Shown: positions 5,776 to 33,716 of the stretch, one piece after another | Position numbering within the stretch: the first letter of the stretch is position 1 | Layout of the letters: every line of letters starts with the position of its first letter | Made by a program: the position numbers and the translations under genes | Assembly: GCA_017463245.1 (NCBI GenBank) | Contig: JAFTPN010000037.1 | Coordinates: 1 to 41,093, forward strand | Source of the DNA: Clostridia bacterium | Lineage (GTDB): Bacteria; Bacillota; Clostridia; Christensenellales; Aristaeellaceae | Reading direction: 5' to 3' | DNA length: 41,093 nt | Notes under the pieces: generated by a model | The model's input: only the letters and a program-made list of their open reading frames with translations | Told to the model about the DNA's origin: nothing | Database searches by the model: none

Positions 5776-5859
5776 CGAAAGGGTCGAAGACCCTTCGCGG
5801 GATTCCCAAGGGCAGAGCCCTTGGGTAGGGGATCCCTAAGGGGACGAAGTCCCCTTAGG
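5776..5859. repeat. Hairpin array A (3 hairpins)
   Basis: Three perfect hairpins with 3-nt loops lie in a row: AAGGGTC-GAA-GACCCTT (5779-5795), CCCAAGGGC-AGA-GCCCTTGGG (5805-5825) and CCTAAGGGGAC-GAA-GTCCCCTTAGG (5835-5859). A GCGGGAT linker follows the first. The last hairpin contains the pheT stop codon. Confidence 0.85.
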
Positions 5860-8248
5860 CGCGGATGACGGCGTTGTATTTTTCGGCGGCGATCTTTTGG
5901 ATCTTTTCCATGGCTTTGGCGACTTCGGCCTCGGTGAGGGTGCGGTCGGCACCGCGGAGGACGAAGGAGAAGGCCACGGACTTCATGTTCTCGCCCAGGG
6001 CGGCGGAACGGTAGATATCGAACATCTTGGCGTCCTCCAGGATGGAACCGGCGGCCTTGGCCATGTCAGCCAGCAGGGGGCCGACGTGGGTGTCCTCGCT
6101 CATCACCAGGGAGAGGTCGCGGGTCACGGCGGGGTAGCGGGGCATGGGCTTCACGGCGCCCATGGGCTTGCTCAGGCGGGCAAGCTGCGCCATGTCCAGC
6201 TCGGCAATGTAGGCACGGGCGGTCATGTCGAACTCCTCGCGCACGGCGGGATGCACCTCGCCCAGGCAGCACACGCGCTCGTCGCCGGCCATCAGCACGG
6301 CACGGCGGCCGGGATGCAGGTAGCTCTCGCCGCGGGCTTCCACGGTGGTCTCGATGCCCAGGGCAGCCAGCAGACGCTCCACCACGCCGCGCAGGGTGAA
6401 GAAATCCTCCTCCTTGCCATACACGCCCAGGCAGAGCTTCTGGGTCTCGGTGGGCAGGTTTTCTTCGGTGCGGTTCTCAGCATCGAACACGGCGGCGATC
6501 TCAAACAGGCGGGCGGATTCGTTGTTGTGGTTCATGTTCAGGGCCAGGGTGGAGAGCATGTCGGGGGTCAGGGTGGTGCGCATCACGCTGGTATCCTCGC
6601 CCAGGGGGTTGCGGATGGGCAGCTGGCACAGGCGGGGATCATCCTCACCCATGTCCAGCTTCAGCACCGTTTTGGGGCTGACGAAGGAGAAGTTCATGAT
6701 CTCATAGAAGCCCATGCCGGTGAGGCAGGCAGAGACCTTGTCCTTCAGGCGCATACGCTCGGAGCGGCCACCCGGGGTGGTTTCGCCGCGCAGCAGGGTA
6801 GAGGGGATCTTGTCGTAGCCGTAAACGCGCAGGGCTTCTTCGGACAGGTCGGCCTCGCCGTCCACATCCTGGCGGTAGTCAGGCACGGTGACGGTCAGCT
6901 TGTCGCCATCGCGCACCACGCCGAAGTGCAGGCTTTCCAGAATGCGCACGATATCGTCAGCGGGGATGTCCACGCCGGTGCGGCGGGCAATGCGCTGGCA
7001 GGAGGCGGTGATGACCTGCTCCTGGGCGGGATTGGGATAGATGTCGATGATGCCGGAGACCACATCGCCAGCGTCCAGCTCGTTGATCATCTGGCAGGCG
7101 CGCTGCATGGCTTCCATGGCGGTCTTGACGGACACGCCCTTCTCAAAGCGGCCGGAGGACTCGGTGCGGATGCCCAGGGCGCGGCTGGTGACGCGGGTGG
7201 CGGCACGGTCGAACACGGCGCACTCGAACATCATGGTGTGGGTCTTTTCGGTGATCTCGGATTCCTCGCCGCCCATGATACCAGCCACGCAGGAGGGCTT
7301 GCTGGCATCGCAGATCACCAGCTGGCCGGGGGTCAGGTCGTGCTGCTTGCCGTCCAGGGTGGTGATATGCTCACCCTCGGTGGCCTTGCGCACGATGATG
7401 TGGTGACCTTCCACCATGTCCAGGTCGAAGGCGTGCATGGGGTGGCCGGTTTCCAGCATGATGAAGTTGGTGATGTCAACCACATTGTTGATGGAGCGCA
7501 TACCGGCGCCGTGGAGGTACTTGCGCAGCCACATGGGGCTGGGGCCGACGCGCACATCCTTGATCACGCGGGCAATGTAGCGGGGGCAGAGGTCGGTGTC
7601 CTTCACTTCCACCTTCACATAATCGTGGATGTCGCCACCGGCTTCCTTCACGGTGATCTCGGGCTTTTTGAAGGTGGTGCCGCAGGCCACGGCAGTCTCG
7701 CGGGCAATGCCCCACACGCTGAGGCAGTCCGGGCGGTTGGCCAGCACTTCAAAGTCCATCACGGTGTCGTCAATGCCCAGAATGGGCTTCACATCAGCGC
7801 CCAGGGGGTGATCCTCGTTGAATTCAAGAATGCCCGCCGCGCCAATGGAGGGATACAGCTCCACCGGCACACCCAGCTCGTCGCTGGAGCAGAGCATACC
7901 CTCGGAGACCTCGCCGCGCATCTTGCCCTTCTTGATCTTCACGCCGCCGGGCAGCTTGGCACCGTTGAGCGCCACGGGGGTCAGGATACCCTCGCGGCAG
8001 TTGGGTGCGCCGCAGACGATGTGCAGGGGTTCTTCGCCGCCCACATCCACGGTGGTGCAGTGCAGGTGATCGGAATTGGGGTGATCGGCACAGGTCAGCA
8101 CCTTGCCCACCACCACGTTCTCGATCTCGGCGCCCAGCTCTTCGTAGCCTTCCACGCCGTTGCCGATCATGATCATTTTATTCTGATATTCTTCGGCAGA
8201 AACAGGAATATCCGCATATTCCTTGATCCATTGCATAGGTACCTTCAT
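5855..8248 (-). CDS. pheT: Phenylalanyl-tRNA synthetase beta subunit
   Basis: The beta subunit of the alpha2-beta2 PheRS, which charges tRNA-Phe; it contributes tRNA binding and editing. Visible domains in order are an N-terminal tRNA-binding OB-fold (about residues 40-150), B3/B4 editing domain (about 210-390), B5 domain (about 400-475), a core synthetase-like fold and a C-terminal FDX-ACB anticodon-binding domain (about 700-797). The 797-aa length is normal. The start at 8248 (MKVPMQWIKEY) is chosen over an upstream ATG at 8278 because of a GGAGGAG site and family N-termini. The stop TAA falls inside the last hairpin of repeat array A. It is the second gene of pheST, 180 nt behind pheS, with hairpin array B in between. 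Confidence 0.95.
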   Translation of the reverse strand: MKVPMQWIKEYADIPVSAEEYQNKMIMIGNGVEGYEELGAEIENVVVGKVLTCADHPNSDHLHCTTVDVGGEEPLHIVCGAPNCREGILTPVALNGAKLPGGVKIKKGKMRGEVSEGMLCSSDELGVPVELYPSIGAAGILEFNEDHPLGADVKPILGIDDTVMDFEVLANRPDCLSVWGIARETAVACGTTFKKPEITVKEAGGDIHDYVKVEVKDTDLCPRYIARVIKDVRVGPSPMWLRKYLHGAGMRSINNVVDITNFIMLETGHPMHAFDLDMVEGHHIIVRKATEGEHITTLDGKQHDLTPGQLVICDASKPSCVAGIMGGEESEITEKTHTMMFECAVFDRAATRVTSRALGIRTESSGRFEKGVSVKTAMEAMQRACQMINELDAGDVVSGIIDIYPNPAQEQVITASCQRIARRTGVDIPADDIVRILESLHFGVVRDGDKLTVTVPDYRQDVDGEADLSEEALRVYGYDKIPSTLLRGETTPGGRSERMRLKDKVSACLTGMGFYEIMNFSFVSPKTVLKLDMGEDDPRLCQLPIRNPLGEDTSVMRTTLTPDMLSTLALNMNHNNESARLFEIAAVFDAENRTEENLPTETQKLCLGVYGKEEDFFTLRGVVERLLAALGIETTVEARGESYLHPGRRAVLMAGDERVCCLGEVHPAVREEFDMTARAYIAELDMAQLARLSKPMGAVKPMPRYPAVTRDLSLVMSEDTHVGPLLADMAKAAGSILEDAKMFDIYRSAALGENMKSVAFSFVLRGADRTLTEAEVAKAMEKIQKIAAEKYNAVIRA

Positions 8249-8314
8249 CGGTACTCCTCCTTTATGTTCCATGCGCAATCAGCCCCAAAGGAACCAAAGC
8301 GCAACATCGCAGAA

Positions 8315-8422
8315 TGGGATTCTTAAGGGTCGAAGACCCTTAAGCGGGTTGTCAGGGCAGAGCCCTGACCGGAGTCCAGAGGCAGAGCCTCTGGCGGGTT
8401 TCCAAAGGGCAGCGCCCTTTGG
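8315..8422. repeat. Hairpin array B (4 hairpins) between pheS and pheT
   Basis: Four perfect hairpins with 3-nt loops: TTAAGGGTC-GAA-GACCCTTAA (8323-8343), GTCAGGGC-AGA-GCCCTGAC (8351-8369), CCAGAGGC-AGA-GCCTCTGG (8376-8394) and CCAAAGGGC-AGC-GCCCTTTGG (8402-8422). GCGGGTT, CGGAGT and CGGGTTT linkers join them. The array ends 6 nt from the pheS stop and is transcribed within the operon. Confidence 0.85.
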
Positions 8423-8428
8423 CGTGGC

Positions 8429-9451
8429 TCAACGGAACTGACCCAGGAAACGGACGTCGCCCTCGAAGAGGAGGCGCAGGTCGGGGATGCCGTAGCGCTG
8501 CATGGTGATGCGCTCGATGCCGATGCCGAAGGCGAAGCCGGAGTACTCGTTGGGGTCGATGCCGCACATTTCCAGCACGTGGGGGTTCACCATGCCGCAG
8601 CCCAGCACCTCGATCCAGCCGGTGCCCTTGCACACGCGGCAGCCCTTGCCGTGGCAGGCCACGCAGGTCAGGTCAACCTCGGCAGAGGGTTCGGTGAAGG
8701 GGAAGAAGCTGGGGCGGAAGCGGGTGGTGATGCCCTTGCCGTACAGGCGCTCGGCAAAGGCGTTCAGGGTGCCGCGCAGGTCGGCCATGGTCACGTCCTT
8801 GTCGATCACCAGGCCTTCCATCTGGTGGAACACGGGGCTGTGGGTGGCGTCCATCTCGTCGGCGCGGTACACGCGGCCGGGGCAGATGACGCGGATGGGC
8901 GGCTTGCGGGTGAGCATGGTGCGCGCCTGCACCGGGCTGGTGTGGGTGCGCAGCACAATGTTGTCATCCACATAGAAGGTGTCCTGCGCATCGCGGGCAG
9001 GGTGGTTCTTGGGGATGTTCATCAGCTCGAAGTTGTAGTGATCCAGCTCCACTTCGGGGCCTTCCACCACCTCGAAGCCCATGCCGGTGAAGCAGTCGAT
9101 GACTTCGTTCAGCACCAGGGTCATAGGGTGGACGGAGCCAGCCTTGGGCGTGGCGGCGGGCTGGGTCACGTCGATGGTCTCGCGCTTCAGGGCTTCTTCC
9201 TGCGCCTGCTTCTTCAGCAGCGCCTGCTTGTCCTCCAGCAGGGCGGTGAACTTTTCGCGAGCCTCGTTGATCATCTGACCGGCGGCGGGGCGCTCCTCGG
9301 GGGAGAGCTGACCCATGCCGCGCAAAAGGGCGGTCAGTTCGCCCTTCTTGCCCAGCACCTTCACGCGCAGGGCGTCCAAGGCCTGCAGGTTATCGCAGCC
9401 AGCCAGTTCGCTCACCAGCAGCTGCTCGATCTGCGCAATCTTTTCCTTCAT
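8429..9451 (-). CDS. pheS: Phenylalanyl-tRNA synthetase alpha subunit
   Basis: The catalytic alpha subunit of PheRS. At 340 aa it matches the bacterial family. It has an N-terminal coiled-coil arm (about residues 1-100) and a class II catalytic core. Motif 2 is seen around HTSPVQARTM and RVYRADEMDATHSPVFHQMEGL; motif 3 is GFAFGIGIERITM near the C-terminus. A CVACHGKGCRVCKGTGW insertion with four cysteines may be a small zinc knuckle. The start at 9451 (MKEKIAQ) is set by the AAGGAAGGA site; an ATG at 9499 lies inside the T-box terminator region. It is the first gene of pheST, controlled by the T-box leader upstream. Confidence 0.96.
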   Translation of the reverse strand: MKEKIAQIEQLLVSELAGCDNLQALDALRVKVLGKKGELTALLRGMGQLSPEERPAAGQMINEAREKFTALLEDKQALLKKQAQEEALKRETIDVTQPAATPKAGSVHPMTLVLNEVIDCFTGMGFEVVEGPEVELDHYNFELMNIPKNHPARDAQDTFYVDDNIVLRTHTSPVQARTMLTRKPPIRVICPGRVYRADEMDATHSPVFHQMEGLVIDKDVTMADLRGTLNAFAERLYGKGITTRFRPSFFPFTEPSAEVDLTCVACHGKGCRVCKGTGWIEVLGCGMVNPHVLEMCGIDPNEYSGFAFGIGIERITMQRYGIPDLRLLFEGDVRFLGQFR

Positions 9452-9473
9452 GGTATTCCTTCCTTTCTTTTGC

Positions 9474-9744
9474 CAACAAAAAACCTTCGTCCCCCGCAAA
9501 AAGGGACGAAGGCGAATTGCCGCGTGTTACCACCCTAATTCCATACAATGGGCATCGCCCATGATATGCTCGTTGCCGATTACGGGGCCGATCCGTCGCC
9601 GCCTACTGAGGCATATGCCCGTTCCGCAGCGCAGCTCAGGAGGGAATTTCCGGAAGGCTCGTCAGGACGCTTGCACCATTCGCGCCCCTCTCTTAGGCCA
9701 GCCTCGGCTCCGGCATTGTCTCCGTCGTCGCCTTTGATGATATT
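9474..9744 (-). promoter_or_regulatory. T-box riboswitch leader of pheST (Phe)
   Basis: The leader RNA senses uncharged tRNA-Phe and lets transcription proceed only when charging is low. On the minus strand the distal stem I loop GAATGGTGCAAG (near 9680), the GAGTAGGCG-like stem III region and the T-box AGGGTGGTAACACGCGG (near 9520-9537) are present. TGGT there can pair with the ACCA end of tRNA-Phe. The best specifier candidate is TTC at 9644-9646, a Phe codon placed 5' of CCTCCTGAG; another TTC lies at 9653-9655. A strong terminator follows. Confidence 0.93.
9478..9512 (-). terminator. T-box terminator before pheS
   Basis: On the minus strand CCTTCGTCCC (9503-9512) pairs with GGGACGAAGG (9484-9493), then comes TTTTTT. 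It is mutually exclusive with the antiterminator formed by the T-box sequence. Confidence 0.92.
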
Positions 9745-9750
9745 GAATGC

Positions 9751-9779
9751 ATTATAGCACGGCGCAGTACAATTTGCAA
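9751..9779 (-). promoter_or_regulatory. pheST promoter
   Basis: TTGCAA (9774-9779) and perfect TATAAT (9751-9756) are 17 bp apart on the minus strand, giving a start near 9744. A perfect ATTTGCA-AG-TGCAAAT palindrome (9772-9787) overlaps the -35 box; its meaning is unknown. Confidence 0.85.
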
Positions 9780-9787
9780 GTGCAAAT

Positions 9788-9850
9788 TGCAGGGGTTCCA
9801 CCCCTGCACCCTGCCAGAGGGATTTCATCCCTCTGGACTCCCTTTCGGGG
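9788..9850 (-). repeat. Hairpin array F (2 hairpins, minus orientation)
   Basis: On the minus strand GGAGT precedes CCAGAGGGAT-GAA-ATCCCTCTGG (9814-9836), followed by CAGGG and TGCAGGGGT-GGA-ACCCCTGCA (9788-9808). The order and flanks match hairpins 3-4 of array B, but with different stem bases. Another hairpin, CGGCGCGA-N6-TCGCGCCG (9883-9904), lies in the same GC-rich gap. Confidence 0.75.
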
Positions 9851-9945
9851 ATGGCGCTTCGGACGCACATAAGCGGGGGTCACGGCGCGAGTACGGTCGC
9901 GCCGCGACGCGGGGGATGGGGCGGCGCTTGTTGCGGCGGGGTGGT

Positions 9946-9979
9946 AAAAAAGAGCAGCCTTTCATTTGAAAGGCTGCTC
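9946..9979 (-). terminator. Terminator of the secreted flavoprotein gene
   Basis: A perfect 13-bp stem (9967-9979 with 9952-9964) and six T follow on the minus strand, 17 nt after the stop codon. Confidence 0.92.
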
Positions 9980-9995
9980 GGGGTGCTTGATTGGA

Positions 9996-11855
9996 TTAGT
10001 CGGCCAGAGCCAGATCGGCGGCTTCTTCGCCAGCGATGCGGCCAAAGACCACGAAGTCGGACACAGCGTTGCCGCCCAGACGGTTGGCACCGTGGACGCC
10101 GCCGGTGACCTCACCAGCCGCATACAGGCCGGGGATGGCAGTGCCGTCAGCAGTCAGCACCTGGGTCTCGGTGTTGATCTTCACGCCGCCCATGGTGTGG
10201 TGGATGCCAGCGGTAACCTTGATGGCATAGTAGGGGGCGGTGTCCAGGGGATTGGTGAAGTTCACGCGGCCGAACTCGGGGTCGTTCTTGGCGGCCACAT
10301 AGGAGTTCCAGTTGTTCATGGTCTCGGCGAAGGCTTCGGCGGGCATGCCGGTGGCAGCGGCCAGCTCTTCGTAGGTGGCGCCGGTCAGGGTCAGGTTCTT
10401 CGTCACATAGCCAGCGATGGTAGCGGAAGCATCCACCATGGCCTGGTCAACGATCAGCCAGGAGTAGGAACCGGTCTGAGCGATCTCAGCAGCGGAAACC
10501 ACGTCGCGGGTGCCAACTTCGTCGGTGAAGCGCTTGCCCTCGGCATTGACCAGGATAGCGCCGTCGCCGCGCAGGCCTTCGGTGATCAGGGAAGCGGTGT
10601 TGGCTTCAACGGTGGGGTGGATCTGGATCTGCTCCATGTCCACCAGGGCAGCGCCCACAGCCTCGGCCATGGCGATACCCTGACCCAGCAGGCCAGCAGC
10701 GTTGGTGGTCATAAAGCCTTCCAGCTCGGGCTTGTAGGAGGCAACCATTTCCAGGTTGGCGCCGAAGCCGCCGGTGGCCAGGATCACAGCATCAGCATTC
10801 ACGGTCACGGTGTTGCCGGTCTTGCCGGTGGCCTTCACGCCCTTGGCAGCGCCGTCCACCATAACGATCTCGTTGGCGGTGGTCTCGAACAGGATGGTGA
10901 TGTTCTCGTTGGCCTCGCAGGCGTCCTCCAGCAGGGGGATCATGTAAGCACCCACGGAAACCTTCTTGCCATCCACCTTGGGCCAGTGGATACGGTTGAC
11001 GGAAGCACCGCCGAAGGCGCCGGTGTTCACCAGCTCGATGTTGTAGTTGCGCAGCCACTCAATGCCCTCGGCAGAGTTTTCGGCCAGCACTTCGACCAGC
11101 GCGGGATCGTTGATGCCCTTGCCGCCGATCATGGTATCCAGCTGCATCAGCTCAACAGAGTCGAAGTAGCCCTCAGCATTCTGCTGATAAGCAGTCCACT
11201 GCACCTCCACCTCGTCAGCCAGCTGATTGATCACAGCGTGGTCAGCATAGGTGGTGTCGATGGAGTCCAGGGTCTTCTCAACGCCGGCGCTCTGGGCGAA
11301 CTCGGCATTGTCCTGGTAGGGGGTGTCGCCAGCGTTCATGCCGCCGGTGGCACGCACGGAGTTGCCGCCCACAGCAGCCTGGGACTCCAGGATAACCACC
11401 TTGGCGCCCTTTTCGGCAGCGGTCAGGGCGGAGGTCATGCCAGCGCCGCCAGCACCGATGATCACAACATCGGCTTCCAGCACGGCATCCTCAGCGACTT
11501 CGGCCTTGATCTCGGCCATGTAGTCGTCGGGATTCAGGCCAGCGGAGGTCAGGGCAGCCTTGGCGGCGTCGATCACGCCGTTGGAAGTGAAGGTGGCGCC
11601 GGACAACACGTCCACATTCACGGTGTTGTACTGCGCCATCAGGGCGGGCAGCTGCTCCAGGGCGGGGGTACCCACGCCGGGAGTCTCATTGGCGCCCTCG
11701 GCCTTGGCGGCGGTAATCACGCCGTTTTCCACGGTCAGGGTCACGGTCACATCGCCGCCAAAGCCCTTGGCGGTGCCGGTCACTTCGTCGGCCATGGCGG
11801 GAACCACGGTCAGCATCATGACCAGCGCGAGCAGCAGAGCAGAAATACGCTTCAT
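9996..11855 (-). CDS. Secreted FMN/FAD-dependent fumarate reductase-like flavoprotein
   Basis: A 619-aa extracytoplasmic reductase of the fumarate/urocanate reductase family. A Sec signal peptide (residues 1-22, cut after AMA) has no lipobox cysteine. An FMN-binding domain (about 25-100) has the covalent flavinylation motif DVLSGATFTS, with Thr88 as the likely FMN site; an ApbE-type transferase would be required but none is in the window. A FAD/NAD-type domain starts at GAGGAG (134-139) and continues to the C-terminus. Catalytic-type elements are EGLRGDGA, GIHHTMGG and HGANRLGGNA. Such proteins pass electrons to fumarate, urocanate, cinnamates or similar acceptors; which one here is unknown. 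GGGGAGGA precedes the ATG. It is monocistronic with its own terminator. Confidence 0.9.
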   Translation of the reverse strand: MKRISALLLALVMMLTVVPAMADEVTGTAKGFGGDVTVTLTVENGVITAAKAEGANETPGVGTPALEQLPALMAQYNTVNVDVLSGATFTSNGVIDAAKAALTSAGLNPDDYMAEIKAEVAEDAVLEADVVIIGAGGAGMTSALTAAEKGAKVVILESQAAVGGNSVRATGGMNAGDTPYQDNAEFAQSAGVEKTLDSIDTTYADHAVINQLADEVEVQWTAYQQNAEGYFDSVELMQLDTMIGGKGINDPALVEVLAENSAEGIEWLRNYNIELVNTGAFGGASVNRIHWPKVDGKKVSVGAYMIPLLEDACEANENITILFETTANEIVMVDGAAKGVKATGKTGNTVTVNADAVILATGGFGANLEMVASYKPELEGFMTTNAAGLLGQGIAMAEAVGAALVDMEQIQIHPTVEANTASLITEGLRGDGAILVNAEGKRFTDEVGTRDVVSAAEIAQTGSYSWLIVDQAMVDASATIAGYVTKNLTLTGATYEELAAATGMPAEAFAETMNNWNSYVAAKNDPEFGRVNFTNPLDTAPYYAIKVTAGIHHTMGGVKINTETQVLTADGTAIPGLYAAGEVTGGVHGANRLGGNAVSDFVVFGRIAGEEAADLALAD

Positions 11856-24507: not shown

Positions 24508-24790
24508 GTTACGTTCACAGCGATGGGGACGGCCTTGGCAGGATGCCTGAAGCGAGCCGGGAGGCGGTGCAAGCCCGGTAGGATAGTGCCAACGCGGATC
24601 ACCCCGGAGTGAGACGGCCTGAAATCATCAGGGCTGTCCGGGCGCTCCCGATACAGGGCAGGCAAGCCATTGCGTTTGCCGATGAGTGGGCGGCTTGCGC
24701 CGTCAACATGGGTGGTACCGCGGATATGTGTTTTATCCGTCCCAGACAATGTTCCTGGGGCGGATTTTTTCTGTCCCCGAAGACTTACAG
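24508..24790 (+). promoter_or_regulatory. T-box riboswitch leader of ileS (Ile)
   Basis: The leader senses uncharged tRNA-Ile. Present are the stem I distal loop GAGGCGGTGCAAG (near 24561-24573), specifier ATC at 24598-24600 (an Ile codon), stem III region GATGAGTGGGCGG, and the T-box sequence ATGGGTGGTACCGCGG (24708-24723). TGGT can pair with the ACCA end of tRNA-Ile. The terminator follows at 24734-24770. Confidence 0.95.
24734..24770 (+). terminator. T-box terminator before ileS
   Basis: ATCCGTCCCAG (24734-24744) pairs with CTGGGGCGGAT (24755-24765, one G-U pair), followed by TTTTT. It alternates with the antiterminator. Confidence 0.92.
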
Positions 24791-24801: not shown

Positions 24802-27800
24802 ATGGCATTGTACAACAAGGTTGCAACCGACATGAATTTCGTCCAGCGCGAAAAGGAAGTCGCGCAGATGTGGAAGGAAAAGGACATCATCCGCAAGTCC
24901 TTCCACCACCGCGAGGGTGCGGAGAACTTCACCTTCTTCGATGGGCCGCCCACCGCCAACGGCAAGCCCCACATCGGCCACATCGAGACCCGCGTCATCA
25001 AGGATCTGATCCCCCGCTATCACACCATGAAGGGCAAGAACGTGCTGCGCAAGGCCGGCTGGGACACCCACGGCCTGCCCGTGGAGCTGGAAGTGGAAAA
25101 GATCCTGGGTCTGGACGGTAAGCCTCAGATCGAACAGTACGGCATCGAGCCTTTCATCGGCGAGTGCAAGAAGAGCGTGTGGAAGTACCTGCACGAGTGG
25201 GAGAAGATGTCCGAGCAGGTGGGCTACTGGGTGGACATGGAGCATCCCTACATCACCTACGAGGATAACTACATCGAGTCCGAGTGGTGGAGCCTCAAAA
25301 CGATCTACGACAAGGGTCTGCTCTATCAGGGTCACAAGATCGTGCCCTATTGCCCCCGCTGCGGCACCGCGCTTTCCTCCCACGAGGTGGCGCAGGGCTA
25401 CAAGAACGTGAAGGAGACCTCTGCCTTTGTGCGCTTTGAGGTGAAGGGCGAGGAGAACACCTACCTCCTGGCCTGGACCACCACCCCCTGGACGCTGCCC
25501 AGCAACCTGGCGCTGTGCGTGAATCCCCGGGATACCTACGCCAAGTTCGTGGTGGAAGGCCAGACCTACATCATGGCCAAGGCGCTGATCGAGAGCGTGT
25601 TCTCCGGCAAGGAAGTCAATATCCTGGCCGAAATGCCTGGCTGCGAGCTGAAGGGCATGGAATATGTGCCGCTGTTCGACTTTGCTGTTGGCAAGCTGGA
25701 TAAGCCCGCCTGGTTCGTGGTGTGCGATGATTACGTCACCATGTCCGACGGTACCGGCATCGTGCATATCGCCCCCGCCTTCGGTGAGGACGACAACCGC
25801 GTGTGCCGCGAGAACGATATGCCCTTTGTCAACTTTGTGGACAATCAGGGCTGCATGACCGAAGACACCAAGTGGCCTGGCGTGTTTGTGAAGGACGCCG
25901 ACAAGCTGGTGCTGGAGGACCTGAAGGAGCGGGGTCTGCTGTTTGCCGCGGTGCCCTTCGCCCATGATTACCCCTTCTGCTGGCGCTGCGATACCCCCCT
26001 GCTGTACTACGCCCGCCCCACCTGGTTCATCAAGATGACCGCCCTGCGGGATCAGCTGGTTAACAACAACCGCACCATCAACTGGATGCCCGATAACATC
26101 AAGGAAGGCCGTATGGGCACCTGGCTGGAGAACGTCCACGACTGGGGCCTGAGCCGCGAGCGCTATTGGGGTACGCCCCTGCCCGTGTGGGTCTGCGAGG
26201 ACGGCCACATGCACGCCATCGGCTCCCGTGCCGAACTCCGTGAGATGGCCATCGAAGACCCCGGCGAGAATATCGAGCTGCACCGTCCCTTCATCGACGA
26301 GGTGCTGATCAAGTGCCCCGAGTGCGGCAAGCCCATGCACCGCGTGAAGGAAGTGATCGACTGCTGGTACGATTCCGGCTCCATGCCCTTCGCCCAGTGG
26401 CACTATCCCTTTGAGAACAAGGAGATCTTTGAGCAGCGCTTCCCCGCTGATTTCATCTCCGAGGCCGTTGACCAGACCCGTGGCTGGTTCTACACCCTGG
26501 AGGCCATCTCCACCCTGCTGTTCGACAAGGCGCCCTTCCAGAACTGCATCGTGATGGGTCACGTGCAGGACGCCGAGGGTCACAAGATGTCCAAGCACCT
26601 GGGCAATGTGGTGGATCCCTTCCAGATGTTGGATAAGTTCGGCGCGGACGCCCTGCGCTGGTACTTCTACACCACCTCCGCCCCCTGGCTGCCCAAGCGC
26701 TTCTCCGAGGAAGCGGTGCAGGAAGGTCAGCGCAAGTTCCTGGCAACCTTGCAGAACGTGTACGCCTTCTTCGCCATGTATGCCCAGATCGACGGCTTCG
26801 ATCCCGTGGCTCATCCCATCGAAAAGGTGGAGAAGAGCCTGATGGACAAGTGGATCCTGTCCAAGCTGAACAGCCTCATCGCCAAGGTGGATGAGGATCT
26901 GGCTGCCTACCGCATCTGCGAGCCTGCCGCCGCCATCGAGGCCTTTGTGGACGAGCTGTCCAACTGGTATGTGCGCCGCGGCCGCGAGCGCTTCTGGGGC
27001 AAGGGCATGGCTGGCGACAAGGAAGCCGCCTTCGCCACCCTGTACCATGTGCTGGTGACCCTGAGCAAGGTGATCGCTCCCTTCGTGCCCTTCATGGCCG
27101 AGGAGATCTACCAGAACCTGGTGGTGAACAACGTGCCCGGCGCCATCGAGTCCGTGCACCTGTGCGATTTCCCCGTGGTGGATGCTTCCGCCATCGACAA
27201 GGAAATGGAAGAGCAGATGGACGCCCTGGTGGAGGTGGTGCAGCTGGGTCGTGCCTGCCGCAACCTGGCCAACATGAAGACCCGCCAGCCCGCCGCCAAG
27301 CTCTATGTGAAGGGCGCGGCCTTCGGTGCTGACTATCAGGCGCTGTGCGAGGACGAGCTGAACGTGAAGGAAGTGGTGTTCACCGAGAGCGCCCGCGACT
27401 TTACCACCTATCAGCTCAAGCCCCAGATGCGCACCCTGGGCCCGAAGTACGGAAAGCTGCTGGGCAAGATCGGCCAGCAGCTGGCCACCATGGACGGCAA
27501 CGACGTGGTGGATGCCTTTGAAAAGGGCGAGACCGTGTCTTTCCAGATCGACGACACCACCGTGACCCTGGGCAAGGACGATGTGCTGACCTCTCCCATG
27601 CAGAAGGCTGGCTATGTGGCCCAGGAAGACCGCGGCGTGACCGTGGTGCTGGACACCAACCTCACCGAGGAACTGGTGCAGGAGGGCTACGTCCGCGAGG
27701 TGATCAGCAAGATCCAGACCATGCGCAAGGAGAACGGCTTCGACGTGACCGACCGCATCGACGTGCTGTATGCCTGCAAGGAGAAGCTGCACGCAGCCAT

Positions 27801-27939
27801 CCAGTCCGGCACGGAGATGATCATGAACGGTACGCTGGCGCTGACTGTGGCCATGGGCTACATCGACGATTCCTACACCGTGCAGGAATGGAAGATCAAC
27901 GACCAGAAGGCTACCATCGCTATCCGTAAGCATCAGTAA
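24802..27939 (+). CDS. ileS: Isoleucyl-tRNA synthetase, type 2
   Basis: Charges tRNA-Ile with isoleucine; a class I synthetase of 1045 aa. The signature HIGH is His57-His60 (KPHIGH) and KMSKH is at 595-599. The CP1 editing region includes TTTPWTLPSN. Cysteine pairs CPRCG and CPECG resemble the zinc elements, and DCWYDSGSMP is conserved. Length and the FFDGPPTANGKPHIGH start place it with the type 2 (eukaryote-like, IleS2) enzymes, which tend to be less sensitive to mupirocin; that is family knowledge, not tested here. The ATG at 24802 has GGAGGG 7 nt upstream, and upstream in-frame ATGs lie within the riboswitch. Controlled by the Ile T-box. Confidence 0.97.
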   Translation: MALYNKVATDMNFVQREKEVAQMWKEKDIIRKSFHHREGAENFTFFDGPPTANGKPHIGHIETRVIKDLIPRYHTMKGKNVLRKAGWDTHGLPVELEVEKILGLDGKPQIEQYGIEPFIGECKKSVWKYLHEWEKMSEQVGYWVDMEHPYITYEDNYIESEWWSLKTIYDKGLLYQGHKIVPYCPRCGTALSSHEVAQGYKNVKETSAFVRFEVKGEENTYLLAWTTTPWTLPSNLALCVNPRDTYAKFVVEGQTYIMAKALIESVFSGKEVNILAEMPGCELKGMEYVPLFDFAVGKLDKPAWFVVCDDYVTMSDGTGIVHIAPAFGEDDNRVCRENDMPFVNFVDNQGCMTEDTKWPGVFVKDADKLVLEDLKERGLLFAAVPFAHDYPFCWRCDTPLLYYARPTWFIKMTALRDQLVNNNRTINWMPDNIKEGRMGTWLENVHDWGLSRERYWGTPLPVWVCEDGHMHAIGSRAELREMAIEDPGENIELHRPFIDEVLIKCPECGKPMHRVKEVIDCWYDSGSMPFAQWHYPFENKEIFEQRFPADFISEAVDQTRGWFYTLEAISTLLFDKAPFQNCIVMGHVQDAEGHKMSKHLGNVVDPFQMLDKFGADALRWYFYTTSAPWLPKRFSEEAVQEGQRKFLATLQNVYAFFAMYAQIDGFDPVAHPIEKVEKSLMDKWILSKLNSLIAKVDEDLAAYRICEPAAAIEAFVDELSNWYVRRGRERFWGKGMAGDKEAAFATLYHVLVTLSKVIAPFVPFMAEEIYQNLVVNNVPGAIESVHLCDFPVVDASAIDKEMEEQMDALVEVVQLGRACRNLANMKTRQPAAKLYVKGAAFGADYQALCEDELNVKEVVFTESARDFTTYQLKPQMRTLGPKYGKLLGKIGQQLATMDGNDVVDAFEKGETVSFQIDDTTVTLGKDDVLTSPMQKAGYVAQEDRGVTVVLDTNLTEELVQEGYVREVISKIQTMRKENGFDVTDRIDVLYACKEKLHAAIQSGTEMIMNGTLALTVAMGYIDDSYTVQEWKINDQKATIAIRKHQ

Positions 27940-27947
27940 TCAACAGC

Positions 27948-27981
27948 GGAGGAGGTTCCAACTGAGCCTCCTCCTTGTTTC
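27948..27981 (+). terminator. Terminator of ileS
   Basis: GGAGGAGG (27948-27955) pairs with CCTCCTCC (27967-27974), then TTGTTT. It begins 8 nt after the stop codon. Confidence 0.75.
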
Positions 27982-27984
27982 AAG

Positions 27985-28081
27985 TTAATGCACAAAAAAT
28001 GGGTTTCGAAAGGGCCGAAGGGCCCTTCGCGGGATCCTTAAGGGCAGCGCCCTTAAGCGGGTTCAGGGCGGAGCCCTGACC
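27985..28081 (+). repeat. Hairpin array C (3 hairpins)
   Basis: AAGGGCC-GAAG-GGCCCTT (28010-28027), TTAAGGGC-AGC-GCCCTTAA (28038-28056) and TCAGGGC-GGA-GCCCTGA (28063-28079) are joined by CGCGGGAT and GCGGGT linkers. The head CACAAAAAATGGGTTTCGAA is shared with array D. The array ends at the ribosome-binding site of the next gene. Confidence 0.85.
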
Positions 28082-28091
28082 GGAGGTCATT

Positions 28092-29387
28092 ATGAAATTT
28101 GCTCTGATTGGTCAAGATATCCCGGCGCTCATCCCCACGCTGCTGGCTGACCTGCTCTTTGCGGGCAAGCAGGCCGCGGATGTGTGGGTGGAAGAAAAGA
28201 ACCAGGCCATGCAGGATGTTTTGCAGCGCTACGGCAAAGCTATCATTGAAAAAAGCGGCCTGGCTGCCAGTCTCACGGCGGAGGGCGACCGCGCGGCGGT
28301 GCTTTCCGGCGCGGACTGCGTGATTTACGCGGGCGACTGCATGGCTGCCAGCCGCTTCCGGCAGGATCGGGAGGCGCTCTCCGGCACAGGGGAGGATGAC
28401 CCCGGCCTGACGGATCAGGCTCGCGTGAACGGCGGCATTGAGGGGCTTCTGCACACGCTGCGCCAGGGCGAGGTGGTCATGACGCTTTGCGAGGCCATGC
28501 AGCAGCATTGCCCCCAGGCGCTGGTGATCAACCTCGGTCAGCCGATGGCGAGAACGACGGCCATTTTCGAGGCGCAGGGCTTCCGCTGCCTTGGGCTGGG
28601 ACGCACGCCCCTGCGCGGCGCCAACGGCCTGGACAGCCTGTGCAAGAAGCTCCATGTGCCGGAAAAGGACGTGCAGGCCACCATTGCGGGTCTGCCGGGC
28701 TTTGCATTCCTGCTGGGGCTGAAAAAGGACGGCGCTGACCTTTTGCCCAAGCTGCGCAAGCTTGCCCAGAAGGACGAGCTGGGTCGCCTGACCCGCCGCT
28801 GGCTGGACTGGTACGAGGCCATTGCCGTGGGCGATGTCACCGACCATGCGGAGTTCCTGCCCGCCCAGGAGGACTACATCCCCGAAGAGGAACCTACCTT
28901 TGGCGAGAGCGTGGAGCAGCGCAAGGAGCGCATCCTGCACATGAACACCGTGGGCGACAAGGGCGCTGCCGACCGTGAAGGCATGATGGCGCAGCTGGTG
29001 CTGCTCTCCAAGGCGCCGCCCATCCGCCCCATGCAGCTGGCGCTGGCGGTGCTCCGTGGCGACAGCCTCACCGTGGACGGCGTGACCCGCCGCAATGATG
29101 GGGAGTTGCCCCAACTGCCGAAATATGCTATCATAGAGGCGCGGCTCACGCTGCAAAAGGGGCAGGTCATGCCCCACCTGACGCAGCTGCCTGCGCCGCT
29201 GGTAGAGATCTGCGGCGAGATCGACGAGACCAACCGCCTGGCGGCCAAGGCTGCCATGGGCGACAGGTCTGCCCTGCGGGAGTGCATCGAGATCGACCCG
29301 GCGCTTTCCGGGCTGGATCGGCTGTACTGCCAGGAGCTGGTGGACAGGCTGATTGAGCTGCACGATGATGTGATCACGCGACTGTAA
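28092..29387 (+). CDS. Divergent GH4-like (LhA/MelA superfamily) protein lacking metal ligands
   Basis: A 431-aa protein that follows the outline of glycoside hydrolase family 4 (NAD+- and Mn2+-dependent glycosidases). It has an N-terminal Rossmann-like start (MKFALIG), GDRAAVLSGADCVIYAG, TDQARVNGGIEGLLHTLRQG, and CPQALVINLGQPMARTT in place of the GH4 INxTNPxG segment. The residues that make GH4 enzymes work are altered: the glycine-rich NAD loop reads GQDIP (7-11), the GLCH metal cysteine is replaced in CLGLGRTP (166-173), and the metal histidine of the GLNH motif is replaced in GLPGF (200-204). It is probably not an active GH4 glycosidase. GGAGG (28082-28086) precedes the ATG. First gene of a four-gene cluster. 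Confidence 0.7.
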   Translation: MKFALIGQDIPALIPTLLADLLFAGKQAADVWVEEKNQAMQDVLQRYGKAIIEKSGLAASLTAEGDRAAVLSGADCVIYAGDCMAASRFRQDREALSGTGEDDPGLTDQARVNGGIEGLLHTLRQGEVVMTLCEAMQQHCPQALVINLGQPMARTTAIFEAQGFRCLGLGRTPLRGANGLDSLCKKLHVPEKDVQATIAGLPGFAFLLGLKKDGADLLPKLRKLAQKDELGRLTRRWLDWYEAIAVGDVTDHAEFLPAQEDYIPEEEPTFGESVEQRKERILHMNTVGDKGAADREGMMAQLVLLSKAPPIRPMQLALAVLRGDSLTVDGVTRRNDGELPQLPKYAIIEARLTLQKGQVMPHLTQLPAPLVEICGEIDETNRLAAKAAMGDRSALRECIEIDPALSGLDRLYCQELVDRLIELHDDVITRL

Positions 29388-29398
29388 GAAAGAGGTGC

Positions 29399-29926
29399 AT
29401 GGTGATGCCTAACATGGGTTTTCTGGCGCTGGCCGAGCAGCGCTATTCGGTGCGCAAGTTTGCTGCCAAGCAGGTAGAACAGGTGGCGCTGGAGCGCATT
29501 CTGCGGGCTGGCCAGGTGGCTCCCACCGCCTGCAACAAGCAGCCCCAGATGACCTATGTGCTGCGCAGCGCTCCGGCCATGGAAAAGCTGCGCAAGTGCA
29601 CCACCAGCCATTTCAATGCGCCCATGGCGCTGCTGGTCTGCTACGACAGCGAGCAGAGCTGGAAGCGCAGCTTTGACGGGCAGGACAGCGGCTGGGTGGA
29701 CGCCAGCATCGTGACCACCCAGATGATGCTGGAGGCCTACGCCCAGGGCGTGGGCACCACCTGGGTGATGCATTTCGACCCGGCCAAGGTGCGGGAGGAG
29801 TTTGCCCTGCCGGAGAAGCAGATTCCTGTGGCCATTCTGGTGATGGGCTACCCGGCCGACGACGTGCAGGCCAGCCCCATGCACAACCAGAACAAGGCCA
29901 TGGACGAGATCGTGAAATACCTGTAA
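29399..29926 (+). CDS. Small nitroreductase-family protein
   Basis: A 175-aa FMN-dependent oxidoreductase of the nitroreductase fold, likely a homodimer in the cytoplasm. RYSVRKFAAKQV near the N-terminus, APTACNKQPQ (FMN contact) and the C-terminal IPVAILVMGYPADD are typical. Natural substrates of such proteins are mostly unknown. The start may be ATG 29399 (GAGG only 3 nt away) or ATG 29405 (better spacing); the difference is two residues. It follows the GH4-like gene by 11 nt and precedes the methyltransferase by 21 nt. Confidence 0.9.
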   Translation: MVMPNMGFLALAEQRYSVRKFAAKQVEQVALERILRAGQVAPTACNKQPQMTYVLRSAPAMEKLRKCTTSHFNAPMALLVCYDSEQSWKRSFDGQDSGWVDASIVTTQMMLEAYAQGVGTTWVMHFDPAKVREEFALPEKQIPVAILVMGYPADDVQASPMHNQNKAMDEIVKYL

Positions 29927-29947
29927 ATTCCCTTTGCGGAGGACACT

Positions 29948-30811
29948 ATGTTTTTAGCCGATACCTGGAAGGACTATGAAGTGCTGGACACCGGCGACGG
30001 TGAAAAGCTGGAACGCTGGGGCGATGTGATCCTGCGCCGCCCCGACCCGCAGACCATTTGGCCCAAGGCCGATCCCGAACTGTGGAAGAAAGCCCAGGCG
30101 CATTACCACCGCTCCGAGCGGGGCGGCGGCGAGTGGGAGTTCCTCACCAAGCTGCCGGAGAGGTGGGTCATCAGCCATGGGGACTGGCAGTTCTACGTGC
30201 GCCCCACGGGCTTCAAGCACACGGGACTGTTCCCGGAGCAGGCGGCCAACTGGGTGTGGATGAGCGAGCTGATCAAGAAAAGCGGCCGCAAGGACGTGAA
30301 GGTGCTGAACCTGTTTGGCTACACGGGCGCGGCCACGGTGGCCTGCGCTGCTGCGGGCGCCCATGTGACCCACGTGGACGCCGCCAAGGGCATGGTGCAG
30401 TGGGCGAAGGAGAACCGGGAACTGACCGACCTGCCGGAAACCAGCTGCCGGTGGATCGTGGAGGATGCGCTGCGGTTTGTGCAGCGGGAGATCCGCCGCG
30501 GCAACCACTACGACGGCATCCTGATGGACCCTCCCAGCTATGGCCGCGGGCCTTCCGGTGAGGTGTGGAAGCTGGAGAACGAGCTGTTCGGCCTGGTGGA
30601 CACCTGCGCCCAGGTGCTGAGCGACGAGCCGCTGTTCTACCTCATCAACAGCTACACCACGGGCTTCCAGGCCAGCGTGCTGAGCAATATGCTGGAGAAG
30701 TGCGTGGTGAGCCGCCACGGCGGCAAGGTGGACAGCCAGGAGCTGTGCCTGCCGGTGACCAGCGGCGGCGTGCTGCCCTGCGGCGCCAGCGGAAGGTGGT
30801 TCCATGCCTAA
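29948..30811 (+). CDS. Class I SAM-dependent methyltransferase (RlmI/K-like, PF10672)
   Basis: A 287-aa methyltransferase. Motif I is VLNLFGYTGAAT (119-130), the acidic motif II end is THVDA, and motif IV is DPPSYGRG (194-201). These match the catalytic domain of the 23S rRNA m5C methyltransferases of the RlmI/RlmK type, but the N-terminal PUA domain is absent and the usual catalytic cysteine motif after motif IV is replaced by LINSYTTG, so m5C chemistry is doubtful. The next gene, an RNA pseudouridine synthase, starts within its last 8 nt, which supports an RNA-modification role. A GCGGAGGA site precedes the ATG. Confidence 0.85.
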   Translation: MFLADTWKDYEVLDTGDGEKLERWGDVILRRPDPQTIWPKADPELWKKAQAHYHRSERGGGEWEFLTKLPERWVISHGDWQFYVRPTGFKHTGLFPEQAANWVWMSELIKKSGRKDVKVLNLFGYTGAATVACAAAGAHVTHVDAAKGMVQWAKENRELTDLPETSCRWIVEDALRFVQREIRRGNHYDGILMDPPSYGRGPSGEVWKLENELFGLVDTCAQVLSDEPLFYLINSYTTGFQASVLSNMLEKCVVSRHGGKVDSQELCLPVTSGGVLPCGASGRWFHA

Positions 30812-31508
30812 GATCATTTATGAAGACAACCATGTGCTGGTGGCCGTGAAGCCCCCGAACATGCTCTCCCAGGCCGACAATACCGGCGACACGGATATCC
30901 TGACCTGGCTGAAGGATGACATCAAGGTGCGCTACAACAAGCCCGGCCGGGTGTACCTGGGCTTGGTGCATCGTCTTGACCGTCCCGTGGGCGGGCTGAT
31001 GGTGTTTGCCCGCACCAGCAAGGCGGCCTCCCGCCTCAGCGCTCAGATGCAGCAGCACCTGATGGGTCGGGAGTACCTGTGCATCGTGACCGGCGAGGTG
31101 AAGGACAGCTTCACCCTGACGGACTACCTGGTGAAGGACGAGAAGCTGAACCGGGTCACCGTGTGCGACTCCGACACCAAGGGCGCCCAGAATGCCATTC
31201 TCCACGGCGAGTGCATCGCCCGGCGCAATGGCACCGCGCTGTGCGCCATCAAGCTGGAAACAGGCCGCAATCATCAAATTCGCGTGCAAATGAGCCACGC
31301 CGGAGCGCCCCTGTGGGGGGACAACCGCTACGGCAGCGGCATCCCCGGCCAGCAGATCGCCCTGTGGGGCTACAAGCTGAGCTTTGAGCATCCCACCACC
31401 CACGAGATCATGACCTTCTACGACGTGCCGAAGGGCTCGGTGTGGGAGAACTATGCTGATCTGCTGGACATGGAGGAGAAGGAAGAAGCGGCGGAGAGTG
31501 CGGAGTAA
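30804..31508 (+). CDS. RluA-family pseudouridine synthase
   Basis: Converts uridine to pseudouridine in rRNA or tRNA. The catalytic Asp59 is in the family signature HRLDRPVGG (56-64); GREYLCIVTG, LETGRNHQIRVQMSHAG and GDNRYG are the other RluA blocks. At 234 aa it lacks an S4 domain and is the short type. It overlaps the methyltransferase gene by 8 nt (ATGCCTAA), so translation is coupled. The C-terminus ends in a Glu/Ala-rich tail (EEKEEAAESAE). The exact target position cannot be read. Confidence 0.93.
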   Translation: MPKIIYEDNHVLVAVKPPNMLSQADNTGDTDILTWLKDDIKVRYNKPGRVYLGLVHRLDRPVGGLMVFARTSKAASRLSAQMQQHLMGREYLCIVTGEVKDSFTLTDYLVKDEKLNRVTVCDSDTKGAQNAILHGECIARRNGTALCAIKLETGRNHQIRVQMSHAGAPLWGDNRYGSGIPGQQIALWGYKLSFEHPTTHEIMTFYDVPKGSVWENYADLLDMEEKEEAAESAE

Positions 31509-31525
31509 GCGGCAGAACCACTCCT

Positions 31526-31570
31526 TCCGTCAGCCGCAAGCGGCTGCCACCTCCCTCGGGGAGGGAGGCT
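31526..31570. repeat. Two-hairpin repeat related to half of the 5570 element
   Basis: CAGCCGC-AA-GCGGCTG (31531-31546) and CCTCCCTC-GGG-GAGGGAGG (31550-31568) follow a CTCCTTCCGT head. The layout matches one half of the element at 5570-5687, with different stem bases. Confidence 0.6.
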
Positions 31571-31583
31571 AAGTAAGTGGCGC

Positions 31584-31602
31584 GGGCGATCGCAGATCGC
31601 CC
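31584..31602. repeat. GGGCGATC hairpin repeat, copy 2
   Basis: GGGCGATC-GCA-GATCGCCC followed by CCTACATTTGCACAGCCAAGTA, which runs into hairpin array D. Confidence 0.85.
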
Positions 31603-31625
31603 CTACATTTGCACAGCCAAGTAAC

Positions 31626-31721
31626 AATGCACAAAAAATGGGTTTCGAAAGGGCCGAATGGCCCTTCGCGGGGTTTCCAAAGGGGCGGCGCCCCTTTGGC
31701 GGGTCCAGGGCAGAGCCCTGG
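31626..31721 (+). repeat. Hairpin array D (3 hairpins)
   Basis: AAGGGCC-GAAT-GGCCCTT (31649-31666), CCAAAGGGGC-GGC-GCCCCTTTGG (31677-31699) and CCAGGGC-AGA-GCCCTGG (31705-31721), with CGCGGGGTTT and CGGGT linkers. It ends 25 nt before the tgt start codon. Confidence 0.85.
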
Positions 31722-31737
31722 CTGGCGTTCCCCTTAA

Positions 31738-32871
<1,134 letters not shown>

Positions 32872-32882
32872 GCATAGCAAAA

Positions 32883-32897
32883 CGCCCGTTTCGGGCG
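32883..32897. terminator. Short terminator-like hairpin after tgt
   Basis: CGCCCG-TTT-CGGGCG. On the minus strand it is followed by TTTT, so it may serve the GNAT gene rather than tgt. Confidence 0.5.
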
Positions 32898-32908
32898 GTG
32901 TTCGTCAA

Positions 32909-32949
32909 ACAAGAAAGCCAAGCTGCATCTTGCAGCTTGGCTTTCTTGT
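32909..32949. terminator. Bidirectional terminator between tgt and the GNAT gene
   Basis: A perfect 18-bp stem (32909-32926 with 32932-32949) and 5-nt loop; the outer stem is AAGAAAG/CTTTCTT, so both strands end in a T-rich arm. It separates two convergent genes. Confidence 0.8.
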
Positions 32950-32962
32950 CGTTCGCAGGACA

Positions 32963-33463
32963 TCACAATTTAACAGACGGATCAGCAACAGCGATAAAGA
33001 GAGGATCACCGTTTTCGGCATGGCCGTAATGCCGCATACCGCCCTTCACCAGCATTTTAGCAGAAGCGATGTTCTGCTTGTCGCAGCCGCCATGCACGCT
33101 GGCTAAACCCACAACATCGAAGGCGTATGCAAGCAAGGCTTTCACGCATTGTGTTCCATATCCTTTGCTTCGGATGGTTTCGTGCAAAAGAACATAAATC
33201 TCTGGGCGTTCAGGATGCTCTTTGCCATCCAGGCCGCACCAACCCCATATATGAAGCGGGTCATTCTTTTTGCAGACGGCCAGGCACAGGTGATAGAATG
33301 GTCCGGCTTCATTGCGGGCATGGTTTTCCGTCATATAAGCCAGTGCATCATAAGCCTCTTCAATGGACACACCGCCCTGAAAGAAGTTCCACATGCGGGA
33401 TATTTCATGGATGTCGCTGCTTGTTACTGTTCTCAAGGTCAAATCATCGGTTAGAAGATTCAT
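32963..33463 (-). CDS. GNAT-family N-acetyltransferase
   Basis: A 166-aa acetyl-CoA-dependent acetyltransferase of the RimJ/RimL-like type. LTLRTVTSSDIHEI is the typical N-terminus, LHETIRSKGYGTQCVKALLAYAF is the acetyl-CoA-binding motif A (R/Q-x-x-G-x-G/A as RSKGYG), and NIASAKMLVKGGMRHYG is motif B. The substrate is unknown. Composition is more AT-rich than its neighbours. An AGGAAG site lies 14 nt before the ATG, so it is weakly placed. It is bounded by strong hairpins on one side and repeats on the other, which suggests a separately acquired cassette. Confidence 0.88.
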   Translation of the reverse strand: MNLLTDDLTLRTVTSSDIHEISRMWNFFQGGVSIEEAYDALAYMTENHARNEAGPFYHLCLAVCKKNDPLHIWGWCGLDGKEHPERPEIYVLLHETIRSKGYGTQCVKALLAYAFDVVGLASVHGGCDKQNIASAKMLVKGGMRHYGHAENGDPLFIAVADPSVKL

Positions 33464-33581
33464 GCGGTGTGGTCACTTCCTATGAATGAATAGGGGGATA
33501 TCCTCATTTCTGCTGCTCCCTGCGCAGCACGCATTCGGCAAAATCCCGGTAGAAGTAGTCCTTCATGCGTTGTGTCGCGGC

Positions 33582-33600
33582 GGGCGAACACAGTTCGCCC
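33582..33600. repeat. GGGCGAAC hairpin repeat, copy 3
   Basis: GGGCGAAC-ACA-GTTCGCCC followed by CCTACATATGTACAGCCATGTAG. The T-A to A-T change in one stem pair is compensated on the other arm. Confidence 0.85.
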
Positions 33601-33625
33601 CTACATATGTACAGCCATGTAGCAA

Positions 33626-33716
33626 AACAAAAATGGGTTTCGAAAGGGCCGAACGGCCCTTCGCGGGATTCTTAAGGGCAGAGCCCTTAAGCGGGTTGTC
33701 AGGGCAGCGCCCTGAC
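33626..33716. repeat. Hairpin array E (3 hairpins)
   Basis: AAGGGCC-GAAC-GGCCCTT (33644-33661), TTAAGGGC-AGA-GCCCTTAA (33672-33690) and GTCAGGGC-AGC-GCCCTGAC (33698-33716), with CGCGGGAT and GCGGGTT linkers. The last hairpin encodes the C-terminus and stop codon of the minus-strand nitroreductase gene. Confidence 0.85.

Follow-up and report, generated by a model that had tools for sequence, protein, structure and literature searches.

Variable-stem hairpin arrays in an Aristaeellaceae genome as candidate modular intrastrand-triplex repeats

Six hairpin arrays and their grammar

The stretch analysed here (the window) covers the 41,093 nt of contig JAFTPN010000037.1 from an uncultured Clostridia bacterium of the gut, family Aristaeellaceae (assembly GCA_017463245.1), and six sites in it, near genes such as pheS, pheT and tgt, hold arrays of short hairpins that share a layout while their stems differ. 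All six arrays, reported in an earlier note made from the letters alone, are present, and array 3 (given there as 9788-9850) does share the grammar of the others, though it is read on the other strand. From the pattern in these sequences we consider it on balance probable that the arrays are modular intrastrand-triplex repeats, shaped at the DNA level and spread by module copying. The arrays and their modules, in sense order (sense being read from the gene end), are as follows.

5776-5859, minus strand: array 1, between the end of pheT and the terminator-like hairpin of pheT; CCTAAGGGGAC module 5835-5859, CCCAAGGGC module 5805-5825, leader hairpin 5776-5797
5738-5775, minus strand: intrinsic-terminator-like hairpin, AAACCCATCTTC / GAAGATGGGTTTTT; inverted repeat 5745-5756/5764-5775
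8322-8422, minus strand: array 2, in the pheS-pheT spacer; modules CCAAAGGGC 8402-8422, CCAGAGGC 8376-8394, GTCAGGGC 8351-8369, CTTAAGGGTC 8322-8344
9789-9850, plus strand: array 3, in opposite orientation; GCAGGGGT module 9789-9807, CCAGAGGGAT module 9814-9836, then ACTCCCTTTCGGGG
27985-28081, minus strand: array 4, upstream of a family-4 glycosyl hydrolase-like gene (28092-29387, plus strand); TCAGGGC hairpin 28063-28079, CTTAAGGGC module 28037-28057, leader 28007-28029
31626-31721, minus strand: array 5, upstream of tgt (31747-32871, plus strand); CCAGGGC 31705-31721, CCAAAGGGGC 31677-31699, leader 31646-31668
33626-33716, minus strand: array 6; GTCAGGGC 33698-33716, CTTAAGGGC 33671-33691, leader 33641-33663

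The window holds 25 hairpins with a stem of at least 8 and a loop of 3-6, where 10 Markov replicates average 4.5; with the loop restricted to 3 nt the figures are 18 and 1.3. Loops are mostly of 3 nt, as the earlier note had it, except that the leaders of arrays 4-6 carry 4-nt loops; the length of 17-25 bp given there is the total hairpin length in nt, the stems being 7-11 bp, and the description of every hairpin as perfect fails for the hairpin at the low-coordinate end of arrays 1, 4, 5 and 6, which is the leader with its one-base bulge.

Across the larger set, a module begins, in sense, with a hairpin of 7-12 bp that is usually perfect and has a pyrimidine-rich triloop; the linker comes after it, as in CCAGAGGGC-tct-GCCCTCTGG-ACTCCC-G. 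The stem is built from a two-base foot, a purine tract and a closing step C (or TC, AC, AT). About ten foot types (CCAGAG, GCAGAG, CCAAAG, CCCAAG, CTTAAG, CCTAAG, GTCAG, GCAGGG and CCAGGG among them) are joined to a variable apex, so that stems do differ from hairpin to hairpin at the apex but are not freely variable; further module types named by stem sequence are CCAAAGGGGC, CCAGAGGGC, CCAGAGAGGGC and CCAGAGGAGGC. The linkers join the hairpins as had been claimed, but instead of a single GCGGGAT/GCGGGTT-like type they vary with the stem. On inspection the modules are not intrinsic terminators: what follows their hairpins is an A..CCC linker, where a terminator would have a T run directly after a GC-rich hairpin.

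Many arrays are closed by the leader, a near-constant hairpin CGAAGGG...CCCTTTCGAAACCC with a one-base bulge, which is the last element in all 65 arrays having one; the bulge is present in 65 of 66 leaders from stretches not selected by the leader pattern. In a larger set the outer apex pair of the leader, left free by the fetching pattern, is Watson-Crick in 105 of 106 (C-G 54, T-A 37, A-T 13, G-C 1; mismatch 1); since 76 of these 106 leaders came from loci fetched by a pattern that fixed the bulge, this count is weak evidence on the bulge itself. A leader search allowing one substitution gave 69 leaders with unreadable run lengths and was not used. Some leaders are followed by an intrinsic-terminator-like hairpin whose 5' arm is formed by the last linker; in array 1, the leader linker AAACCC is the start of the 5' arm of the hairpin at 5738-5775. 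At some array ends (loci L054, L061, L080, L190, L221, L222, L226 and L236) the position of the leader seems to be occupied by a second terminal module, CCAAAGGGTC-ttc-GACCCTCTGG-ACTCCC, which carries one fixed A.C mismatch.

The linker and the purine-motif code

The linker tracks the purine tract of the stem base by base, in parallel when read in sense, with C for G and A or T for A: CCAGAGG is followed by ACTCC, CCAGAGGG by ACTCCC, CCAGAGAGGG by ACTCTCCC, CCAGAGGAGG by ACTCCACC or ACTCCTCC, CCAGAGGGAGG by ACTCCCACC, and CCAAAGGGAGG by AAACCCTCC. With orientation set by the loop, not the linker, the whole tract fits in 229 of 260 modules, against 173.2 +/- 3.6 (maximum 185) when linkers were shuffled 1000 times among modules of the same foot class. 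When every tract type is counted a single time, with the linker it carries most often, 25 of 28 types fit fully, against 3.95 +/- 1.63 (maximum 11) in 10,000 permutations; the modules are related by descent and their counts are not independent, which this type-level test lessens but does not remove. Position by position, the parallel code matches at 155 of 161 positions and antiparallel Watson-Crick copying at 60 of 161, on which ground Watson-Crick pairing of the linker with the 5' arm is rejected. Misfit linkers are often one C short.

The order that is parallel in sense is antiparallel on the G-rich strand, a mirror repeat and not an inverted repeat. A purine-motif triplex places G opposite G and either A or T opposite A (PMC4666352); opposite the apical A, the linkers show both A and T, as this motif allows. 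Judged by sequence, the linker carries the purine-motif code for an intrastrand triplex of the G-rich strand. A triplex of the pyrimidine motif, formed by the sense strand, is less probable: A stands opposite A at many positions, and runs of C+.GC triplets, which triplex chemistry disfavours, would be needed.

An intrastrand-triplex (IT) search, rebuilt from published criteria (perfect triplets only, 6-15 triplets, loops 1-6), found four G-rich motifs in the window, all within arrays, and one A-rich class II motif elsewhere. The four G-rich ones are:

8396-8420, plus strand: class I IT motif, GGGTTT / AAAGGG, 6 triplets
31670-31697, plus strand: class I IT motif, GGGGTTT / AAAGGGG, 7 triplets
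5827-5856, plus strand: class I IT motif, AGGGGAT / AAGGGGA, 7 triplets
9816-9843, minus strand: class I IT motif, AGGGAGT / AGAGGGA, 7 triplets

The same search was run on 522,347 nt sampled from the 2.70 Mb draft genome (92 contigs), where it found 42 G-rich class I motifs, 40 of them within arrays (45 within arrays at loops up to 7), and a single G-rich class II motif, outside the arrays; five Markov replicates of this sample together yielded one class I and one class II motif. By sequence the arrays thus qualify as IT elements of class I (third strand - purine - pyrimidine), and none of the array motifs has the class II order (pyrimidine - purine - third strand) of the Escherichia coli element TMECO.

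Copies, orientation and module turnover

The genome sample contains 39 arrays, 34 of them with at least two hairpins, and 104 modules including leaders, a density that is probably overestimated as several contigs were chosen for holding matches; BLAST with array 1 alone gave 42 matches genome-wide. When 60 genomes were searched with a 91-base array query, matches were found in all 18 genomes of the genus (own genome included), in 2 of the 18 that represent the family's other genera and in none of the 24 that represent the order's other families; one exact module pattern occurred in 1 of 391 genomes of the class, namely our own. The copies therefore extend well beyond the window, and the idea that similar repeats occur in other clostridia holds weakly, for two genomes of other genera in the family; a wide clostridial distribution was not found with the one exact pattern, and similar repeats may occur in other gut bacteria. 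In a public species set the leader pattern matched 70 stretches; their titles all name Clostridia or Clostridiales metagenome assemblies, and most of the titles point to ruminant gut samples. Of a phage or plasmid origin there is little sign, with two short partial matches in unannotated faecal "Bacteriophage sp." records and no plasmid match. The genome-wide copies, together with covariation beyond what palindromic duplication gives (the three-strand match and the four pair types at the outer apex of the leader), contradict both outcomes that the earlier note had named as refuting, and support its suggestion that selection or copying acts on structure.

Gene context was taken from our own codon-bias gene-calling script. 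In the first calls, later redone on more loci, 39 of 52 arrays with called neighbours followed a stop codon in sense; in 31 of these the distance is at most 30 nt, and 15 touch or overlap the stop codon. Stop codons at times lie inside the first stem: the pheT TAA (5855-5857) sits in the stem of the CCTAAGGGGAC module of array 1, and the first module of array 6 codes the last codons and TGA (33699-33701) of a nitroreductase-like gene (33699-34448, minus strand). Among the 98 arrays counted later, for which both neighbours were called (15 edge and 11 in-gene arrays of 124 being excluded), 57 come after one gene in sense and have a second gene of that strand beyond them, 21 run opposite to both neighbours, 19 lie between convergent genes and one between divergent genes, compared with 113 divergent among 537 spacers of 60 nt or more.

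Mismatches and base composition bear on which strand matters. One stem mismatch occurs in 29 of 354 modules (in sense, 25 A.C or C.A, one G.T and three others; 14 A.C/C.A to one G.T as distinct sequences), and the 25 A.C/C.A cases are wobble pairs on the G-rich strand. In 85 of 124 arrays (p 4e-5) this strand is the one with positive GC skew, computed with arrays masked; so it is for most arrays in 23 of the 30 contigs that have a majority (p 0.005), and for 28 of 39 arrays of our own genome (summed from the table); these p-values are optimistic, as orthologous arrays of sister species are counted repeatedly. Array orientation agrees with the gene-majority strand in 60 of 124. Orientation thus follows GC skew and not gene direction, and the strand of importance seems to be the G-rich strand and not the transcript of the preceding gene. 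Taking the G-rich strand as the lagging-strand template follows the usual convention only.

Orthologous loci compared across sister species show, at the sequence level, gain and loss of modules and the exchange of one module for another. The pheS-pheT spacer reads as follows in genomes of the genus:

Own genome: CCAAAG-CCAGAG-GTCAG-CTTAAG
G012: CCAGAG-GTCAG-CTCAAG
G008: CCAGAG-CCAAAG-CTTAAG
G015: CCAAG-GTCAG-CCAGAG-CTCAAG
G004: a single GCAGGG module and CTTAAG
G003: array running into the contig end
G013 and G014: diverged hairpins only
G007: no array

The last module is shared at this spacer, with two both-arm changes (G015 and G004). In a hand count over 15 comparable loci of our own genome and G012, module content differs at 12, with flanks 85-97% identical. 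At clean one-module differences (L017, L020:6184 and array 6) a C-run followed by G or A flanks the module on both sides, the pattern that copying or slippage from linker to linker would leave. Five clean differences were picked out visually: four are next to the leader or the terminal module (tgt in G012/G015, array 6, L017 and L020:6184) and the fifth is on the gene side (pheS-pheT, own genome against G012), too few for a statement on polarity.

Several other elements stand out in the window and at further loci. PheS and PheT (5855-9499; loci L120-L174) occur in the genus as two sequence types, with about 80-100% as opposed to 28-50% identity to those of the window, a distribution that suggests replacement by horizontal transfer. 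Two T-box leaders, below the Rfam gathering score, lie upstream of pheS (9499-9737, minus strand) and of an ileS-like synthetase gene (24511-24747, plus strand). A perfect 19-bp hairpin with a 3-nt loop (32909-32949), just downstream of tgt, is possibly the tgt terminator. A second palindrome family, GTAGGGGCGAnC..GnTCGCCC, GTAG-tagged and REP-like, stands at 5511-5529, 31584-31602 and 33582-33600, and has two copies within the region of the one Y1 transposase match in the genome (locus L029, about 1637-1660 and 1811-1833). A repeat of about 150 bp with TTCCACCTCATC ends, found at 5600-5662 and in several other stretches of the genome, holds the hairpins CCTTCCCC-tcaa-GGGGAAGG and GCTTCCCC-ttga-GGGGAAGC. 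In a further family, at L017 10343-10483, L020 11357-11441 and L021 13037-13084, a hairpin GTTTTCAGC-aga-GCTGAAAAC, or one much like it, stands next to one of the CCGGCGGC-aaa-GCCGCCGG type.

Known systems and rival explanations

The closest known relatives are the bacterial IT elements (PIT, BoxC and TMECO; Holder et al. 2015, PMC4666352), which by that account are likewise intergenic, repeated and G-rich, with a purine-motif triplex code in one strand, and whose TMECO loci are linked to instability between strains. The arrays differ from TMECO, as described there, in several respects: i) they are class I and TMECO is class II; ii) their modules vary in sequence, whereas TMECO is a highly conserved 37-nt motif; iii) they have a leader at one end, abut gene ends and exchange modules. 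The words "clostridi", "Firmicutes", "array" and "stop codon" are absent from the main text of PMC4666352; among the matches listed in the open-licence literature, none describes these arrays, and Rfam covariance models gave no match overlapping the arrays of the window up to E 1. The arrays are therefore best read, as far as their sequence allows, as a new, modular, array-forming variant of the bacterial intrastrand-triplex repeats (PIT/BoxC/TM).

The unit, of about 25-37 nt, is a palindromic hairpin plus its linker. In the mechanism that we propose, the linker of the G-rich strand would fold back, antiparallel, and lie along the purine arm as the third strand of a triplex (G.GC, A.AT, T.AT). 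The entity maintained and copied would be this G-rich strand in its folded form, exposed as a single strand during replication. Other arrays would be the source of new or replacement modules, through template switching at stalled forks via the C-run linker ends or through a single-strand enzyme, and whole-module exchange would keep stem and linker together. Gene ends would be the sites that tolerate insertion, so that a regulatory role tied to particular genes need not be assumed. We infer both that the triplex forms and that modules are copied; the mirror linker calls either for selection on a triplex-like fold or for inherited founder modules that once satisfied it.

Besides the shared descent of modules and of orthologous arrays noted above, several lines of evidence weigh against this reading: i) about 60 of the 104 sampled modules miss the strict 6-triplet criterion; ii) in six further genomes of the genus, sampled without the foot list and yielding clustered units from three only, 13 of 21 distinct units fit the code against 7.6 +/- 1.5, and G007 alone, not wholly held out as its pheT array was known earlier, gave 8 of 13 against 5.7 +/- 1.2, both weaker support; iii) in the pheS-pheT spacer of G015, one module changed in both stem arms while its linker stayed unchanged; iv) 14 of the 25 wobble cases, and 6 of the 14 distinct sequences, belong to a single subfamily with a fixed A.C mismatch (CCAAAG..CTCTGG), outside which 8 distinct wobble sequences stand against one, some sharing descent; v) the skew of the coding strand is 0.005 to 0.028 for rplB and -0.048 to -0.025 for rpoB in the stretches holding each, and this disagreement between ribosomal-protein and rpoB strands, like the tRNAs (22:7 by gene, about 5:7 by locus), leaves no tie to a replication strand; vi) no copying enzyme was found in Y1 transposase searches of the genus genomes; vii) TMECO itself formed a triplex in vitro, while in vivo footprinting, in the account of PMC4666352, gave no stably formed triplex.

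Among the rivals, the arrays may act as RNA, being transcribed after the stop codon as 3' untranslated elements that stabilise mRNA 3' ends or form part of terminators. Their position after stop codons (39 of 52, some abutting), the near absence of divergent placement (1 of 98) and the last linkers that double as the 5' arm of a terminator-like hairpin all speak for this. A transcript-level role as the main driver is made less likely by the mismatch bias (A.C and not G.U in the sense transcript, 25 to 1), the 21 reversed arrays and an orientation that tracks skew rather than the gene majority; moreover, RNA hairpins leave the linker code unexplained, and no Rfam model matches the arrays of the window. 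We regard an RNA role of this kind as unlikely to be the driver, although the arrays may well affect 3' ends in a secondary way. A purely mutational origin, in which hairpin-templated repair or template switching keeps the arms complementary without structural selection, would account for the both-arm changes at orthologous modules and leaders and for the four Watson-Crick pair types at the outer apex of the leader with one mismatch in 106. Template switching yields inverted and not mirror copies, and so cannot write a linker that matches in parallel at 155 of 161 positions and antiparallel at 60; we hold such an origin to be quite improbable as the whole explanation.

REP/BIME elements and their RAYT (TnpA-REP) transposases (PMC3733652, PMC8266576, PMC6006769) share with the arrays short palindromes clustered mostly downstream of genes and a single-strand logic, and the leader bulge recalls that of E. 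coli REPs as described in PMC8266576; the strand-linked orientation would also suit mobilisation by such an enzyme. Most REPs are marked by a GTAG or CGTC tag beside the palindrome, by the account in PMC3733652, whereas 3 of 354 modules have GTAG/CTAC within 8 nt and 8 of 354 have CGTC/GACG there, and the arrays further differ in having several stem types and a linker coded by the stem. No RAYT adjoins them: 12 of 18 genus genomes, all drafts, gave no Y1 match, the 18 Y1 loci, 7 of which come from this genus, hold no module or leader in the gene or in flanks of up to 1.5 kb, and the Y1 gene region of our own genome contains a different, GTAGGGGCG-tagged palindrome. A REP/RAYT identity is thus rejected on tag, gene neighbourhood and gene absence, and mobilisation of this kind is largely refuted and very improbable.

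By analogy, the arrays might also be gene-less micro-cassettes, units of hairpin and third strand acquired beside the fixed leader by a single-strand recombinase or by template switching at forks, growing from one end as integrons and CRISPR arrays do. The leader at one fixed end (65 of 65) and the four of five one-module differences beside the leader or terminal module hint at this, which we nevertheless see as a long shot. BOX elements of pneumococcus have a modular layout with a distinct end module, and integron attC sites fold as single strands and keep structure more than sequence; the arrays resemble both in these traits and differ from them in having units of about 25-37 nt without cassette genes.

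The first description of the arrays is partly supported; it had missed the linker as part of the pattern, the importance of the G-rich strand and the exchange of modules between orthologous loci. Whether intrastrand triplexes form in bacterial cells, and matter there, is an open question, with formation in vitro and no stable formation in vivo in the account of PMC4666352. In this genus evolution itself seems to record the third strand, as 25 of 28 stem tract types carry code-following linkers, and the natural mutational series, the orthologous loci with and without given modules and the strand prediction would make the triplex question testable.

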